Of a DNA stretch of 55,224 bases, positions 1-22,709 are shown piece after piece. The translations under genes and the position numbers were made by a program. The DNA comes from an uncultured Clostridia bacterium (GTDB taxonomy: Bacteria; Bacillota; Clostridia; Christensenellales; Borkfalkiaceae): NCBI GenBank assembly GCA_944342055.1, contig CALVME010000051.1, positions 1-55,224 of the forward strand, written 5' to 3'. Under the pieces are notes generated by a model. The model saw only the letters and a program-made list of their open reading frames with translations, made no database searches and had not been told where the DNA came from. Numbering within the stretch: position 1 is the stretch's first letter; the number at the start of each line of letters is the position of its first letter.

Positions 1-804
1 CTGCTCCGCTTCGAGCTCGAGCGGCTGGGGGCGCGGCTGGAGATCGGCAGAGAGGTCGTGCGCCTGGAGAGGGGATTTGTTCTGACGCTTTCGGACGGCG
101 AACGGCTGGGCGCCGATTTTGTCGTGCAGTGTACGGGCGGCAAGGCGGCGAAACAGTTCGGCACGGACGGCTCCGCCTATGCGTTGGCAAAGGGGCTCGG
201 TCACAGCCTGACGCCGCTCTTCCCCGCTTTGGTGCAGTGCAGGGCGGACGTCGGCGCGCTGCGCAGTCTGAAGGGCATCCGCTCCGATGTCGTGCTCCGC
301 TGCGGCGACGTCGCCGTGAGGGGGGATTTCATGATCGCCGATTACGGGATCACGGGGGACGCCGTCTTTCGCCTCTCTTCCTACCTTGCAGACCGCGGTG
401 AGACGACGGTGTACGTCGAATTTTTGCCCGACGTGAGCGAGGAGACGCTGCTCTCCCTCCTGAAAGGCAAGCGCGCGCCGCAGGGAGAACTGTTCTGCGG
501 CGTGCTCAACAATCAGATCGGCAGATACCTGTGCAAGGCGGGCGGCTCGATAGAGGGCGCGGTGCGGCTCTGCAAGCGCTTCCCCGTCCGCGTGCTCGGC
601 ACGCTGGATTTTTCGCATGCGCAGGTCACGCGCGGCGGCGTGCCGATGAACGAAGTGACGGAGAAACTCGAGAGCCGCAAATGCGGCGGATACTTTCTCT
701 GCGGCGAGATTCTCGACGTGGACGGAGAGTGCGGCGGGTACAACCTGCAATGGGCGTTTGCGAGCGGCGCGATCGTCGCAAAGGAGTTGTTATGCAGACG
801 ATGA
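1..804 (+). CDS. BaiN/HI0933-family FAD-dependent oxidoreductase (5' end outside window)
   Basis: The reading frame is open from base 1, so the gene starts before the window; 267 residues of the C-terminal part are present. The protein matches the BaiN/YhiN (HI0933-like) flavoprotein family: it has the VVQCTGG segment that contacts FAD early in this part, and near the C-terminus the family signature CGEILDVDGECGGYNLQWAF followed by ASG, which closes the flavin site. The N-terminal dinucleotide-binding GxGxxG is off the window. Members are cytosolic NAD(P)/FAD oxidoreductases with mostly unassigned substrates. The stop overlaps the start of the next gene by 13 bases, so the two flavoproteins are probably co-translated. 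Family assignment is firm; substrate unknown. Confidence 0.85.
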   Translation: MLRFELERLGARLEIGREVVRLERGFVLTLSDGERLGADFVVQCTGGKAAKQFGTDGSAYALAKGLGHSLTPLFPALVQCRADVGALRSLKGIRSDVVLRCGDVAVRGDFMIADYGITGDAVFRLSSYLADRGETTVYVEFLPDVSEETLLSLLKGKRAPQGELFCGVLNNQIGRYLCKAGGSIEGAVRLCKRFPVRVLGTLDFSHAQVTRGGVPMNEVTEKLESRKCGGYFLCGEILDVDGECGGYNLQWAFASGAIVAKELLCRR

Positions 805-2330
805 CAGACATCAAACTGCGCCTCGGAGAATCCGAGGAGCGGCTGTTTCAGATGGCGGAGCGCGCGCTCGGCAGGAAGCCGAAGACCTTTCGCATCTTAA
901 AAAAATCGCTGGACGCGCGCAAGAAGGAGGACATCCGCTGGGTGTATTCCATCGGGTTTTCCGCGGAGGAAGAGGAGAAAGAGCCTCCGCGCGTGCGGCT
1001 CGCTTCGCCTCCCCGCGTCGTGATCGTGGGGAGCGGGCCCGCCGGGCTCTTTTGCGCCCTGCGCCTCATCGAATACGGCGCAAAGCCGATCGTCCTGGAG
1101 CGCGGCAAGTGCGTGGAGGAGCGCGCGTCGGACAACGAACGCTTCTTTTCGGAGCATCAGCTCGAGGGAGAGAGCAACATTCAGTTCGGCGAGGGCGGGG
1201 CGGGAACGTTCTCTGACGGCAAACTCTACTCGCAGACCAATTCGCCGCAGAACAGAAACAATGCCGACGTGTTCCGCCTGTTCGTGCAATTCGGCGCGCC
1301 GGAGGAGATCGCCTACCTTTCCAAGCCGCACATCGGGAGCGACAGACTCCGCGTCGCCGTCAGGAACATGCGCGAATACATCCGCGCGCAAGGCGGCGAG
1401 GTCCGTTTTTCGGCAAAGATGACCGATCTCATGATCTCGGACGGAAGGGCGGTCGGCGTGATCGTCAACGGGCGGGAAGAGCTGCGGGCGGACGCCGTCG
1501 TGCTCGCGGTCGGGCACAGCGCGCGGGATACCTTTTCCATGCTCGAAGGGAAGCTGTTCATGGAACAGAAGGAGTTTGCCGTCGGGCTCCGCGTGGAGCA
1601 CCTGCAATCGGAGATCGGGAAGGCGCAGTACGGTGCGGCATGGACGAGGCTGCCGACGGCGGATTACAAGCTCGTCTCTCACGCGAGCGAGCGCGGCTGC
1701 GTGTCCTTCTGCATGTGCCCGGGCGGCTATGTCATACCCGCCGCTTCCGAGGAGGGCGGCGTCGTCACCAACGGCATGAGCAACTACGCGCGCGACGCGG
1801 TCAACGCAAATTCCGCGCTCGTCGTCCAGGTCAAAAAGGCGGATTTCGACGGGAGCGATCCCTTGGCGGGGGTGCGCTATCAGCGCGCGTTAGAGAGAAA
1901 GGCGTTCGAGCTCGGCGGCGGAGATTACCGCGCGCCCGTACAGCTCGTCGGGGATTTTCTGCGCGGCCGCGTGAGCGATGGCTTTGGCGCGGTGCGCCCT
2001 TCGTATGCGGCGGGGGTGCGGTTTGCGCCGCTCTCCGAACTTCTGCCCGAACCGATCGCAAATTCCCTGCTGGCGGCGATCCCCGACATGGACAGGCGGC
2101 TTAGGGGCTTCGCTTCGCCCGACGCGGTTCTCACGGGCGTGGAGAGCCGCACGAGCTCGCCCGTGCGCATCTGCCGCGGCGAAGACATGCAGAGCGTATC
2201 GTGCGCGGGCGCGTATCCCTGCGGAGAGGGGTGCGGCTATGCGGGCGGGATCACCTCTTCGGCGGCAGACGGGCTGCGCGTCGCGGACGCGATCGCGCGG
2301 CAGGCGGCGGACGGCTTTTTTGCAAAATAG
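792..2330 (+). CDS. FAD-dependent dehydrogenase, COG2509 type
   Basis: A 512-aa flavoprotein. The Rossmann FAD motif VVIVGSGPAGLFCALRL lies at about residues 76-92, followed by an ERGKCVEERASDNERF segment and the family-typical GESNIQFGEGGAGTFSDGKL; a second nucleotide-related AVGHSARDTF is mid-protein, and the C-terminal GEGCGYAGGITSSAADGLRVA closes the flavin site. This pattern is that of the uncharacterised FAD-dependent dehydrogenases (COG2509) common in Clostridia. The N-terminal ~70 residues are an extra small domain that the family usually has. I chose the ATG at 792 because the frame upstream overlaps the preceding gene; a second ATG nine bases later is possible. Substrate unknown. 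Confidence 0.85.
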   Translation: MQTMTDIKLRLGESEERLFQMAERALGRKPKTFRILKKSLDARKKEDIRWVYSIGFSAEEEEKEPPRVRLASPPRVVIVGSGPAGLFCALRLIEYGAKPIVLERGKCVEERASDNERFFSEHQLEGESNIQFGEGGAGTFSDGKLYSQTNSPQNRNNADVFRLFVQFGAPEEIAYLSKPHIGSDRLRVAVRNMREYIRAQGGEVRFSAKMTDLMISDGRAVGVIVNGREELRADAVVLAVGHSARDTFSMLEGKLFMEQKEFAVGLRVEHLQSEIGKAQYGAAWTRLPTADYKLVSHASERGCVSFCMCPGGYVIPAASEEGGVVTNGMSNYARDAVNANSALVVQVKKADFDGSDPLAGVRYQRALERKAFELGGGDYRAPVQLVGDFLRGRVSDGFGAVRPSYAAGVRFAPLSELLPEPIANSLLAAIPDMDRRLRGFASPDAVLTGVESRTSSPVRICRGEDMQSVSCAGAYPCGEGCGYAGGITSSAADGLRVADAIARQAADGFFAK

Positions 2331-2376
2331 CGGAAAGGTATCATTCGCTTTTCATATGGCTATCACTTAGCGCCGC

Positions 2377-2382
2377 TATAAT
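2377..2382 (+). promoter_or_regulatory. -10 box TATAAT for the candidate sRNA
   Basis: A perfect TATAAT seven bases before the first base of a hairpin. No convincing -35 hexamer is found 16-18 bases upstream (the sequence there is ATATGG), so this promoter is only half supported. Confidence 0.4.
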
Positions 2383-2388
2383 AAGCGC

Positions 2389-2483
2389 GTAATCAGATGA
2401 ACCTCCAACGATTGATTACACCTAAACTTTTTTCATATTCTCTCACAAGAAGAGCCGATCTGCCGAGATCGGCTTTTCTTTTT
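2389..2483 (+). ncRNA. Candidate small RNA with a CCUCC loop
   Basis: The stretch starts at the expected start site of the TATAAT at 2377. A 7-bp stem GTAATCA / TGATTAC (2389-2395 with 2413-2419) encloses a 17-base loop containing CCUCC (2402-2406), which is complementary to a Shine-Dalgarno AGGAGG. An A/U-rich single-stranded linker follows, then a terminator hairpin AGCCGATCT-gccg-AGATCGGCT (2453-2474) with a T-rich tail. A 5' hairpin presenting C-rich bases plus an intrinsic terminator is the usual build of Firmicute base-pairing sRNAs. It could instead be only the 3' UTR and terminator of the upstream gene, or an sRNA cut from it. Confidence 0.5.
2453..2483 (+). terminator. Intrinsic terminator
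   Basis: Nine-bp stem AGCCGATCT / AGATCGGCT with loop GCCG, followed by TTTCTTTTT. It ends the oxidoreductase operon and the candidate sRNA. Confidence 0.85.
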
Positions 2484-2630
2484 GCGAAAAAACGGCGAAA
2501 CGCAGGGACGCGGAAGACGACGGGACGAGAAATGCGGCGTCTGCGGGAGGAAAAAGTCAAAAAACGGAAGAATGATAAGCCGCGCTTATATCTTCCCCAA
2601 AAAGTACGAATAAAAACAGAAAATAGTATG

Positions 2631-2659
2631 TTGACGGCGGGACGGTTTTGTGCTATCAT
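2631..2659 (+). promoter_or_regulatory. Promoter of the ATP-grasp/alpha-E/transglutaminase operon
   Basis: TTGACG (2631-2636), 17-base spacer, TATCAT (2654-2659). The start site would fall near 2666, giving a leader of about 25 bases before the ATG at 2691. The bases between the previous terminator (2483) and this promoter show no gene. Confidence 0.8.
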
Positions 2660-2690
2660 AAACGATGTAAAAAAGTATGTGAGGTTGCAT

Positions 2691-4004
2691 ATGGAGCGAT
2701 TGTTTGAGCGTACGGCCTCCGTAAATCAGCTTCTTGCTCGTTACGGGGTCAAATTCGGCATCTATAAAAACGGGGTATTCAAGGAACAGCTCTTTCCCTT
2801 CGACGTCATCCCGCGCGTCATCGGCGCGAAGGAGTGGGAGACGCTCGAAAAGGGGTTGATCCAGCGCGTCACCGCGCTCAACCTCTTTCTGAGCGACGTG
2901 TACGGCGAACGCAAGATCATCAGAGACGGCGTCGTCCCCGAAGATTTTGTCTTCTCGTCGTCAGGCTTCCTGCCGCAGTGCGACGGTTTTTCTCCCGTAA
3001 AGAACATCTATTCGCACATTTCGGGCATCGATCTCGTCAAAGGCAAGGACGACGCCTGGTACATATTGGAAGACAATCTGCGCGTGCCTTCGGGCGCTTC
3101 CTATCCCATGATCGCGCGCGAGCTTTGCCGCCGCGTTTCGCCGGATACCTTCCATGCGAATCACGTCTCGGACAACCGCGACTACGCGGAGCTCCTGCGC
3201 GAGACGATGGACAACGTCAATACGGGCGGGCTCAACGTCATCCTCTCCCCGGGCAGATACAATGCGGCTTACTTCGAACATTCCTTCCTCGCCGAGCGGA
3301 CCGGTTCCGTCCTTTCCACGGGGAGAGATCTCGTGGTGCTCAACGATACGCTCTATTATGTGGGCAAGAACGGAAGAAAACAGCGCGTGGGGGCGCTCTA
3401 TCGCCGCATTTCGGACGAATATCTCGACCCGCTGCACGGCAACCCGCAGTCCCTGATCGGCATTCCCGATCTGTATGAAGTGTACCGCAAGGGAAACGTC
3501 GGACTTCTGAACGCGATGGGAAACGGCGTCGCGGACGACAAGGGCATCTATTATTTCGTGCCGAAGATGATCTCCTATTATCTTGGCGAAGAGCCGATCC
3601 TGCACAACGCGCCGACCTATCTCTGCTTTTACGAGGAGGACAGAAACTACACGCTCGCAAATTTCGACAAACTCGTCATCAAGGACGTGGCGGAGGCGGG
3701 CGGTTACGGCGTCGTGTTCGGCAGCAAACTCACCAAAGAGGAAAAGGAGGCGTTCAAGCAGAAGCTCATCGCCGAGCCGCGCCGCTTCATCTCGCAGGAA
3801 GTCATCGATTTCCAGGATATCGACATTCTGGAGGGCGGGCAGCGCCTGCCGCGCAAGGCGGACCTGCGCGCGTTCGTGCTGACGGGTGAGACCGTCAAGG
3901 TGTGGAAGAGCGGGCTGACGCGTTTCTCGCGCAATCCCGATTCGTTCATCGTCAATTCGTCGCAAGGAGGAGGGTTCAAAGACACATGGGTGTTATCACG
4001 GTAG
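2691..4004 (+). CDS. Circularly permuted ATP-grasp protein (DUF404/DUF407 type)
   Basis: A 437-aa protein of the circularly permuted ATP-grasp family, which uses ATP to activate a carboxylate and join it to an amine. Visible family landmarks in order: ILEDNLRVPSGASYPM (about 124-139, acidic/Asn metal site and Arg), VGALYRRISDEYLDP, LLNAMGNGVADDKGIYYFVP, the Lys plus glycine-rich loop VIKDVAEAGGYGVVFG, KADLRAFVLTG, and a terminal SSQGGGFKDTWVL. The family is about this long. The frame is open further upstream, but the ATG at 2691 sits just behind a consensus promoter and starts the conserved sequence. It overlaps the alpha-E gene by 19 bases; this pair, with a transglutaminase, is a widely conserved module predicted to form amide or peptide bonds. 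Product unknown. Confidence 0.88.
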   Translation: MERLFERTASVNQLLARYGVKFGIYKNGVFKEQLFPFDVIPRVIGAKEWETLEKGLIQRVTALNLFLSDVYGERKIIRDGVVPEDFVFSSSGFLPQCDGFSPVKNIYSHISGIDLVKGKDDAWYILEDNLRVPSGASYPMIARELCRRVSPDTFHANHVSDNRDYAELLRETMDNVNTGGLNVILSPGRYNAAYFEHSFLAERTGSVLSTGRDLVVLNDTLYYVGKNGRKQRVGALYRRISDEYLDPLHGNPQSLIGIPDLYEVYRKGNVGLLNAMGNGVADDKGIYYFVPKMISYYLGEEPILHNAPTYLCFYEEDRNYTLANFDKLVIKDVAEAGGYGVVFGSKLTKEEKEAFKQKLIAEPRRFISQEVIDFQDIDILEGGQRLPRKADLRAFVLTGETVKVWKSGLTRFSRNPDSFIVNSSQGGGFKDTWVLSR

Positions 4005-4663
4005 AAAAGATCGATCAGCTCTGGTGGATGGGGCGCTATACGGAGCGCGTCTATACGACCATCCGCAAGTTCATTTTAAGTTACGATTACATGATCGACG
4101 GGGACGAAAATTTTTACGCAGACGTATGCGGCAAGCTCGGCATCCCCAACACTTACAAAGACGCGGAGGACTTTCTGACGCGGTATCCCTTCGACGAGGA
4201 AGACCCGAACTCCATCGTTTCCAACCTCAACCGCGCGCTGGACAACGCGATGATCTTGCGCGAGGTGATCGGCTCGGAGACGCTCGGTTATCTGTATCTT
4301 GCAATGTACGACATGAAGAAGGCGGCTCTGGACGGCGCGCCTCTCGTCGATCTGCAGTTCGTGCTCGATCACATCCTCGCCTTCTGGGGCTGCATCGAGG
4401 AGAACGTGTACAACGAAGAGATCAGGAACATCGCCCGCGCGGGCAAGCGTCGGGAAAGTTTCGATCTTCTCCTGCGGGAGGGAAAGGCGTCCCCGCGCGA
4501 GCTGGAGGCGGCGTGGAACAGGCTGAAGGCGCGGCTCGACCGTTCGCCGATCACTTACGATGCGGACATTTTCGATACGCTGCACGAAATCATCCTGAGC
4601 GAGCCCGTCAACTACCGCAACGCGCTCGAGCTTTTGGGTAAACTTTTGGAAGAACACGTATGA
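3986..4663 (+). CDS. Alpha-E (DUF403) domain protein
   Basis: A 225-aa, almost entirely helical protein. Near the N-terminus it has QLWWMGRYTERVYTTIR (residues ~10-26), the usual W-x-GRY-x-ER signature of the alpha-E family. Alpha-E proteins occur next to, or fused with, permuted ATP-grasp ligases and are thought to be partner subunits; their exact job is not known. A strong GGAGGAGG (3966-3973) inside the end of the ATP-grasp gene precedes the ATG. Its stop overlaps the start of the transglutaminase gene (ATGA), so the three are translationally coupled. The first codons MGVITVEKIDQL fit the family start. Confidence 0.88.
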   Translation: MGVITVEKIDQLWWMGRYTERVYTTIRKFILSYDYMIDGDENFYADVCGKLGIPNTYKDAEDFLTRYPFDEEDPNSIVSNLNRALDNAMILREVIGSETLGYLYLAMYDMKKAALDGAPLVDLQFVLDHILAFWGCIEENVYNEEIRNIARAGKRRESFDLLLREGKASPRELEAAWNRLKARLDRSPITYDADIFDTLHEIILSEPVNYRNALELLGKLLEEHV

Positions 4664-5436
4664 GCGTCTATCGTTATCGCTATGAGATGCGGATCTCTTT
4701 CGGGGGTCCCGTCACAAATCACAGTTTCAAAATTAAGTGCCTGCCGCAGGACAATTGCCGTCAGAAGATATTATCCTGCCTTTGGGAAGTGGAGCCGGAC
4801 GTGCCCCTCAAGGTCTATCGCGATTGGGCGGGGAATGCGGAGGCGCACGGATTCGTCTCCGACCCGCACGAAGTTTTTTCGTTTACGGTGAGCGGCGAGG
4901 CGGAGACGGCGAACGACATTTGCGAGAGCAAGGGCGACGCCTCTCCCGTCTATCGCTACGAAACGCCGCTGACGGCGGCGGGCGAAGGGCTGAAAGCGTT
5001 TTTTGCCGCGCAGGGCGTCCGTCCGGACGCGCCATACGATGCGGCGCTTGCGCTCATGCATGCGACGCACGGCGCGCTTCGATATGAGAAGGGCGAGACG
5101 GACGTCGCCACGAGCGCGGAAGAGGCGTTTGAGCGGGGCAGCGGCGTCTGTCAGGACTATGCGCACGTCATGCTTGCGCTCTGCCGCCTGGCGGGGCTGC
5201 CTTCGAAATACGTCGTAGGCTTTATTCCGGGGGAGGGCGAGAGCCATGCGTGGGTCGAGGTGCAGTGCCGCGGCTATTGGTACGGATTCGACCCGACGAA
5301 CGATCTGCTCGTCTCGGACGGCTACATTAAAATTTCGGAAGGCAGAGATTTTTCTGACACGGAGATCAACCGCGGATGCTTCCGCGGCGCGGTCTCTCAG
5401 GAAAAGCAGATCTGCGTCCTTGTGGAAAAGAGTTGA
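4660..5436 (+). CDS. Transglutaminase-like cysteine protease/amidase
   Basis: A 258-aa transglutaminase-fold protein. The Cys-His-Asp triad is visible: Cys164 in GSGVCQDYAH, His196 in ESHAWVEV, Asp211 in YGFDPTND. The N-terminal ~110 residues form the beta-rich domain that goes with this subfamily (bacterial transglutaminase N-terminal type). No signal peptide, so it is cytosolic. In the ATP-grasp/alpha-E neighbourhood such proteins are predicted to cut or transfer amide bonds on the ligase product. ATGA overlap with the upstream stop. The catalytic residues are all present, so I expect it to be active; substrate unknown. Confidence 0.88.
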   Translation: MSVYRYRYEMRISFGGPVTNHSFKIKCLPQDNCRQKILSCLWEVEPDVPLKVYRDWAGNAEAHGFVSDPHEVFSFTVSGEAETANDICESKGDASPVYRYETPLTAAGEGLKAFFAAQGVRPDAPYDAALALMHATHGALRYEKGETDVATSAEEAFERGSGVCQDYAHVMLALCRLAGLPSKYVVGFIPGEGESHAWVEVQCRGYWYGFDPTNDLLVSDGYIKISEGRDFSDTEINRGCFRGAVSQEKQICVLVEKS

Positions 5437-10807: not shown

Positions 10808-11150
10808 GTTGAGATAATCATACGGTCGCGGCACCTTTACGGGTGATGAGGAAAGTCCGAGCACCATAGGGCAGGATGCCTGCTAACGGCAGGTGGAGGC
10901 GACTTTAAGGAAAGTGCAACAGAAATAAACCGCATTCTTTTGAATGCAAGGGTGGAAAGGCGAGGCAAGAGCTCACCGACGCCCCGGAGACGGGGCGTGC
11001 CATGTAAACCCCATCCGGTGCAAGATTGGGAATTTGCCATACGGGTTGCCCGCCCGGCAAATTCCGTGAATATCGCTGGAGCCTGCCGGTGACGGCAGGC
11101 GTAGATAAATGACCGTACACGACAGAACTCGGCTTACAGATTATCTCAAC
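10808..11150 (+). ncRNA. rnpB: RNase P RNA, bacterial A type
   Basis: About 343 nt. The 5' and 3' ends pair as helix P1 (GTTGAGATAATC with GATTATCTCAAC). The universally conserved CR I is GAGGAAAGTCCGA at 10848-10860 and CR V is ACAGAACTCGGCTTACAGA at 11122-11140. The P12-like hairpin GACGCCCC / GGGGCGT is near 10980-11000. This is the catalytic RNA that trims the 5' leader of tRNA precursors. No protein gene (rnpA) is in the window. Confidence 0.97.
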
Positions 11151-11165
11151 TTTCCGGCACACCCC

Positions 11166-22421: not shown

Positions 22422-22567
22422 TCCCGAAAAGGTCTCCGATCCTTTTCGGGAGCCCTTAGGTTTTAGCGCGCAGCGTTGCGGGACGCAAAAAAAAGAAAGA
22501 GCGAAGTTTTTCGCTCTTTCCTGGTCGAGGCGACGAGATTCGAACTCACGACTTCAGCGTCCCGAAC
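22422..22567. repeat. Direct repeat copy B (overlaps the intact tRNA-Pro)
   Basis: Second copy of the 146-base unit at 22204-22349. Here the tRNA part continues into an intact tRNA-Pro(CGG). Confidence 0.9.
22487..22520 (-). terminator. tRNA-Pro operon terminator
   Basis: On the - strand: 11-bp stem GAAAGAGCGAA / TTCGCTCTTTC with a 4-base loop, followed by eight T. It lies one base after the tRNA CCA end. Confidence 0.9.
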
Positions 22568-22597
22568 GCTGCGCGCTACCAGCTGCGCTACGCCTCG
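22522..22597 (-). tRNA. tRNA-Pro, anticodon CGG
   Basis: 76 nt with a complete cloverleaf: acceptor CGAGGCG / CGCCTCG, D stem GCGC, anticodon stem CAGCG / CGCTG with loop TTCGGGA (anticodon CGG, reads CCG), T stem GTGAG / CTCGT (with one non-canonical pair) around TTCGAAT, discriminator A and encoded CCA. Confidence 0.95.
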
Positions 22598-22632
22598 AAG
22601 CGGAAACAGCCTGCATCGTTGCAGGCTGCCTT

Positions 22633-22709
22633 TGGTTGAGGTGACGGGACTTGAACCCACGACCTTTTGGTCCCTAACCAAACGCGCTACCAAGCTGCGC
22701 TACACCTCA
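22633..22709 (-). tRNA. tRNA-Pro, anticodon AGG
   Basis: 77 nt: acceptor TGAGGTG / CACCTCA, anticodon stem TTTGG / CCAAA with loop TTAGGGA (anticodon AGG), T loop TTCAAGT, discriminator A and encoded CCA. A34 tRNAs for Pro are unusual in bacteria outside some Firmicutes. Between it and the CGG tRNA is a 9-bp hairpin (CAGCCTGCA / TGCAGGCTG), probably a processing spacer. Confidence 0.93.

Follow-up and report, generated by a model that had tools for sequence, protein, structure and literature searches.

The closest described system that we find is that of the Streptococcus csRNAs (RF02379). Transcription of these small RNAs depends on the response regulator CiaR, acting at NTTAAG-N5-TTTAAG repeats, and they carry an unpaired stretch that is both anti-Shine-Dalgarno and anti-AUG, together with the nonamer [A/C]UCCUAAA[A/C]; some of them have a terminator hairpin only (PMC3091779). 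They repress comC by pairing between the Shine-Dalgarno sequence and the AUG, as supported by compensatory mutations (PMC4507080).

The DNA analysed here, which we will refer to as the window, is a stretch of 55,224 nucleotides from an uncultured Clostridia bacterium. The csRNA model is the best Rfam match to a candidate small RNA gene in it and aligns at full length with 36.7 bits (E 8e-4), against a gathering score of 57. On the copy in a sister species (L009) the model gives 25.0 bits, also under the 57-bit gathering score, and on 12 other loci of the same family no match is reported. An Rfam scan of the segment finds no family at its gathering score. Our literature searches turned up no publication about Borkfalkia small RNAs and nothing matching on two-component small RNAs in Clostridia; the small RNA is previously undescribed.

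Anatomy of the small RNA gene

The features discussed below are the following (window positions unless a contig is given).

792-2330, plus strand: FAD-dependent oxidoreductase gene, PF21688 (Pfam), the constant upstream neighbour of the small RNA
2341-2366, plus strand: operator, with TCAT at 2341-2344, TCAT within TTTTCAT at 2352-2355 and TCAC at 2363-2366
2377-2382, plus strand: -10 box TATAAT, from the sequence and its fixed spacing to the operator in aligned members
2389-2419, plus strand: 5' hairpin of the RNA, GUAAUCA (2389-2395) with UGAUUAC (2413-2419); predicted transcription start at 2389
2402-2406, plus strand: CCUCC (anti-Shine-Dalgarno) in the hairpin loop, from the sequence; aligns with the ACCUCC loop of the csRNA model
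2425-2444, plus strand: single-stranded core AACUUUUUUCAUAUUCUCUC, complementary to the start region GAGAGAAU-AUG-AAA-AAA-G
2447-2483, plus strand: intrinsic terminator, a 15-bp stem (2447-2480) and U tract
G000:C100:3048-3713, minus strand: gene of an OmpR-family response regulator, whose promoter carries the box of the small RNA promoter

The predicted start, G2389, is seven bases downstream of the -10 box. Folded alone, the 5' hairpin has a predicted energy of -6.5 kcal/mol (z -3.5) and the terminator hairpin with its U tract one of -23.4 kcal/mol (z -8.4). The entire segment folds with a z of -5.4, none of 200 shuffles being equally stable, and the core is unpaired in this fold. The earlier note had described a TATAAT box, a hairpin with CCUCC in its loop, a single-stranded linker and an intrinsic terminator, and sequence and folds bear out each of these, the terminator being a strong one. 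The segment is also AT-richer than its surroundings, as had been claimed, its GC content being 40%, compared with 65% for the gene upstream and 57% for both the downstream gene and the window. A mechanically called ORF (2397-4004) begins within the 5' hairpin; we reject its start as evidence of coding, because there is no ATG at this place in the sister copy L009 and the ATP-grasp domain begins much further along (its Pfam match starts at residue 139 of that ORF), which agrees with the non-coding character assigned to the segment previously. The conserved promoter, linker and terminator lend good support to the proposal of a base-pairing small RNA of about 95 nt. Judging from the sequence, we conclude that 2389-2483 is a real small RNA gene of this length, shared by uncultured gut Clostridia across one family. 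Elsewhere in the window we see an RNase P RNA (class A) gene and two tRNA genes (10810-11152 and 22525-22709).

Distribution and neighbourhood of the locus

A DNA search of relatives matches the entire element in one genome of the same genus, at 77% identity, and the linker only in other genera. Of 398 genomes from the family containing Candidatus Borkfalkia, 257 have the 20-nt core AACTTTTTTCATATTCTCTC at up to 2 mismatches, mostly exact and in single copy, whereas the reversed control pattern matches about 17 genomes (counted from the scan table). Candidatus Borkfalkia faecavium and faecipullorum are among the matching records, and we take the host family of the small RNA to be that of Borkfalkia. 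There are 84 distinct loci that combine the -10, the core and a stable downstream hairpin, 77 of them with the operator as well; as the core and TATAAT served as keys in gathering these members, invariance within the set is partly built in, an effect to which the 2-mismatch core scan is less subject. An order-wide scan finds the exact element in the Borkfalkia family only. A sequence model running from promoter to terminator, which scores 67 bits on the window copy, finds no convincing member in the other families sampled, and pattern matches in other phyla, being without a terminator hairpin, were rejected as chance.

Among members the core and promoter are constant, while terminator sequences and leaders (20-49 nt) vary freely. 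The core sits right before the terminator, whose sequence is different in the other members. Many of these have a terminator hairpin only, and the core is only moderately open in their predicted folds (mean unpaired 0.73). The 5' stem is kept in the sister copy L009 (fold -4.8) and is absent in other genera. These comparisons bear on the CCUCC loop, to which the earlier note had assigned the function of the RNA and whose conservation in relatives it took as a test. The loop is exposed, matches the ACCUCC loop of csRNA and is indeed kept in the sister species (L009/G001), with the flanks GAA-CCUCC-AA. However, CCUCC occurs in the leader of just 2 of the 77 members, these being the window genome and the sister species; the remaining 75 have leaders without it. 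The conserved element is instead the single-stranded linker, and we see little chance that the RNA acts mainly through the 5' CCUCC loop as an anti-Shine-Dalgarno effector.

At 74 of 77 loci the small RNA shares its strand with the FAD-oxidoreductase gene and lies directly behind it, no more than 400 nt away, with a median of 66 nt from the aligned end of that gene to the -10. It had been suggested that relatives be searched upstream of the ATP-grasp operon, but this search would have missed the RNA, since the ATP-grasp gene adjoins it only in the window genome and its constant neighbour is the FAD gene. We conclude from this synteny, which we establish computationally along with the gene structure and its conservation, that the small RNA of the Borkfalkia family is a single ancestral locus, placed behind the FAD-oxidoreductase gene. 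Genera and families that lack the core have neither box nor core in the region following the FAD gene, apart from a diverged copy in one genome (G028), which is also the only copy that the sequence model picks out where the exact core is missing. This copy (L299) lies about 50-220 nt behind the FAD gene and has a box and a terminator; it is without the anti-AUG core, TTTTTTCCTTCTT replacing TTTTTTCATATTCTC.

So close a position on the same strand would also be compatible with a small RNA released from the 3' UTR of the FAD-oxidoreductase mRNA, in which case the linker would act alike and its supply would be tied to that gene. However, the stretch from the stop codon to the RNA holds a conserved -10 and spaced operator, whereas the leader is free in both length and sequence, and we consider this origin quite unlikely. 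The operon downstream in the window (2692-5436) encodes a circularly permuted ATP-grasp protein, a further ORF and a transglutaminase-like protein. The small RNA is upstream of it on the same strand and might be read as its cis-acting leader or attenuator. This is barely conceivable in our judgement, as the adjacency is confined to the window genome and the ATP-grasp ORF has its own start 200 nt past a very stable terminator.

The promoter operator and its putative regulator

In the consensus of the small RNA promoters (n = 84), the half-sites TCAT, TTTTCAT and WCAC follow each other with an 11-bp period, the last one ending 10 bp before TATAAT, and both the period and the distance to the -10 are constant across members. 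Such half-site geometry is that of promoters activated by OmpR-family regulators. A missing -35 had been regarded as the weak point of this gene. The -35 is absent, but in its stead there are three repeats, beginning at 2341, 2352 and 2363 in the window, and on this pattern we conclude that the apparently missing element is an activator site.

With up to two mismatches allowed, the box pattern is found at two places only in the genome of the window, namely at the small RNA (zero mismatches) and at the promoter of the response regulator (L200). The same search across 14 genomes, at 2 mismatches, returns essentially the small RNA alone, in addition to this one regulator promoter. The regulator has orthologs, 76-85% identical, in 16 of 20 tested genomes, and TTTCAY-N5-TTTCAY is present with at least 11 of 12 matches in 13 of 14 orthologous regulator promoters, whereas 14 paralogous regulator promoters reach at most 10 of 12 matches and none of them carries the box. 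Because the box of the small RNA is common to these regulator promoters and is not shared by the paralogues, we propose that the small RNA is probably under two-component control, and it is probably directed against translation initiation. A HAMP-HisKA-HATPase kinase and luxS are encoded behind the response regulator, luxS (L201 829-1287, minus strand, G000:C100) directly behind the regulator/histidine kinase pair.

The exact box and -10 pattern has 9 matches in 15 genomes, and the reversed control has 0. Besides the small RNA and regulator promoters, these matches lie before EcfA-type ABC ATPase genes, a SpoIIID-like gene and a Kef-type antiporter, and one match, in G026, has no clear gene behind it. 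The SpoIIID-like gene is in the window's own genome (L320, G000:C40:42447-42481), with an exact TTTCAY-type repeat box before TATAAT. The EcfA-type ABC transporter ATPase genes, with both box and -10, are in two genera (L321 in G004, L322 in G011), and the box before them suggests a wider regulon.

In G009, G130 and G132, three genomes from a single genus, the small RNA and the regulator are 11-12 kb apart. The sister genome G001 has the small RNA and its box, with no regulator ortholog above 41% identity, and G010 and G361 have the regulator, with no detectable small RNA. Identification of the regulator as PhoB was rejected, as it scores 202 bits against a PhoB cut-off of 296 and a separate regulator gene (C102:14298) is located near pstS. 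We also rejected control of the small RNA by the Pho regulon, since a pstS promoter of G000 has different repeats, TTTTTACA, and a likely partner regulator had been found.

The core, its candidate targets and comparison with known small RNAs

The complement of the core reads as a Shine-Dalgarno tail, a spacer, the start codon and two Lys codons. In 12 genomes it has 123 non-self matches at up to 3 mismatches versus 46 for the reversed pattern (about 2.7x, summed from the scan table), an excess of complementary starts that is at least partly expected from ATGAAAAAA gene starts. Those inspected include real start regions with a Shine-Dalgarno sequence, many of them of lipoprotein or substrate-binding protein genes (L378, L381, L387, L400, L409, L411 and others), in part a consequence of MKK-type signal peptides and no independent proof. 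At the inspected start sites the predicted duplex energy ranges from about -12 to -22 kcal/mol. Two patterns were used to look for a near-perfect target that is conserved, and no single one recurs across all genera. One junction is recurrent, in two genera, where an ORF of 26-42 aa overlaps the rubrerythrin stop (ATGA) and has the start region AAGGAGAAAATATGA[A/G]AAAG. Coding constraint on the end of rubrerythrin (PFEKEKI*) accounts for part of this match, and for that reason the junction remains a candidate only. The leading target candidates are lipoprotein and ABC-binding-protein genes that start M-K-K, and the tiny ORF overlapping rubrerythrin.

The tiny ORF itself (L354-L360, L344, L346, L347, L353 and others; G163, G118, G123, G154 and further genomes) is rich in Lys, Asn, Ser and Cys and ends TKNCK. 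Right after it there is a conserved short reading stretch, DPxGSYTGxxxDGGKPVQDADDL*, apparently in another frame. These stretches are candidates for one or more undescribed small proteins or for a frameshift arrangement.

As it stands in the sequence, the core is best read as blocking translation initiation. Alternatively, its main role might be to bind protein rather than to pair, either as a platform or sponge for an RNA chaperone or by acting as a second DNA operator. Its near-invariance over 17-20 nt exceeds that of the usual multi-target pairing regions, its sequence TTTTCAT-N3-CTCTCAC resembles the promoter repeats, and a protein site has been suggested by Marx et al. for the csRNA nonamer (PMC3091779). 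However, the repeat in the core has a period of 10 bp and not 11 bp, the core keeps a constant place before the terminator, and its complement reads as a start region; we consider the platform unlikely.

Our proposal is that an autoregulated OmpR-family regulator, with its histidine kinase encoded behind it, would bind the 11-bp-spaced TTTCAY repeats and switch on the -35-less promoter of a trans-acting small RNA of about 95 nt. The open conserved core, CUUUUUUCAUAUUCUCUC, would then pair with mRNAs around the spacer, the AUG and the first Lys codons and block ribosome entry, the best-fit targets being AUG AAA AAA genes, many of them for lipoproteins and substrate-binding proteins. In the window genus the CCUCC hairpin loop may add a second contact, directed at the Shine-Dalgarno sequence. 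The operator shared by the small RNA and regulator promoters is established by computation; direct binding of the regulator, expression, antisense blocking and the targets we infer, and we think it reasonably likely that the circuit as a whole, a response-regulator-switched RNA blocking start regions through its core, is correct. As regulator, operator, RNA and pairing core are all legible from sequence across hundreds of genomes, the circuit is testable.

Two further known families invite comparison. RoxS/RsaE (RF01820), which is under ResDE in B. subtilis, is likewise a Gram-positive small RNA under a two-component system with C-rich pairing regions, but its model gives 15.3 bits for the sister copy against a gathering score of 79, and the motifs differ. 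The Atu_C9/AbcR-like RNAs of Rhizobiales (RF02503) have a similar layout of linker and terminator, and AbcR-type RNAs act on transporter-protein mRNAs; here the score is 21.4 bits against a gathering score of 40 and mostly generic, and the host class, Alphaproteobacteria, is different.

The likeness to csRNA goes further. The RNA has about the same length (95 nt), and the window copy consists of two stem-loops, a 5' hairpin with an ACCUCC loop and the terminator, joined by an unpaired linker with CCUAAACUUUUUUCAUA. The linker is again anti-Shine-Dalgarno/anti-AUG, CAU in the core being the anti-AUG, and the -35 is again replaced by a direct repeat of 11-bp period, here the putative site of a two-component response regulator. 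Where csRNA has its nonamer, after the first stem-loop, the window has CACCUAAAC (8 of 9 positions), and other members have mostly CACACAAAC-like sequences. On the other hand, the operator is TCAT-N7-TCAT-N7-WCAC rather than NTTAAG-N5-TTTAAG, equal in geometry and different in sequence; the gene is present once, at a fixed locus, where csRNAs have several sibling copies; and the host belongs to a different class of Bacillota. By this analogy the RNA probably works like csRNA, although we do not file it as a member, since the score is too low, the operator differs and most of its own family gives no match to the model. The resemblance may reflect distant homology or convergence, both being possible. 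That this family-wide, single-locus RNA evolved the csRNA design independently, with an OmpR-type two-component system under its own control, a small RNA promoter devoid of a -35 and a generic core against start codons, and that it serves as a broad brake on translation of Met-Lys-Lys envelope and secreted proteins, is a tentative extension that we hold to be somewhat doubtful. The circuit would show the csRNA design outside Streptococcus, whether by distant descent or by convergence, and would be a clean setting in which to ask how a single near-invariant antisense core of 17-20 nt can serve many targets.
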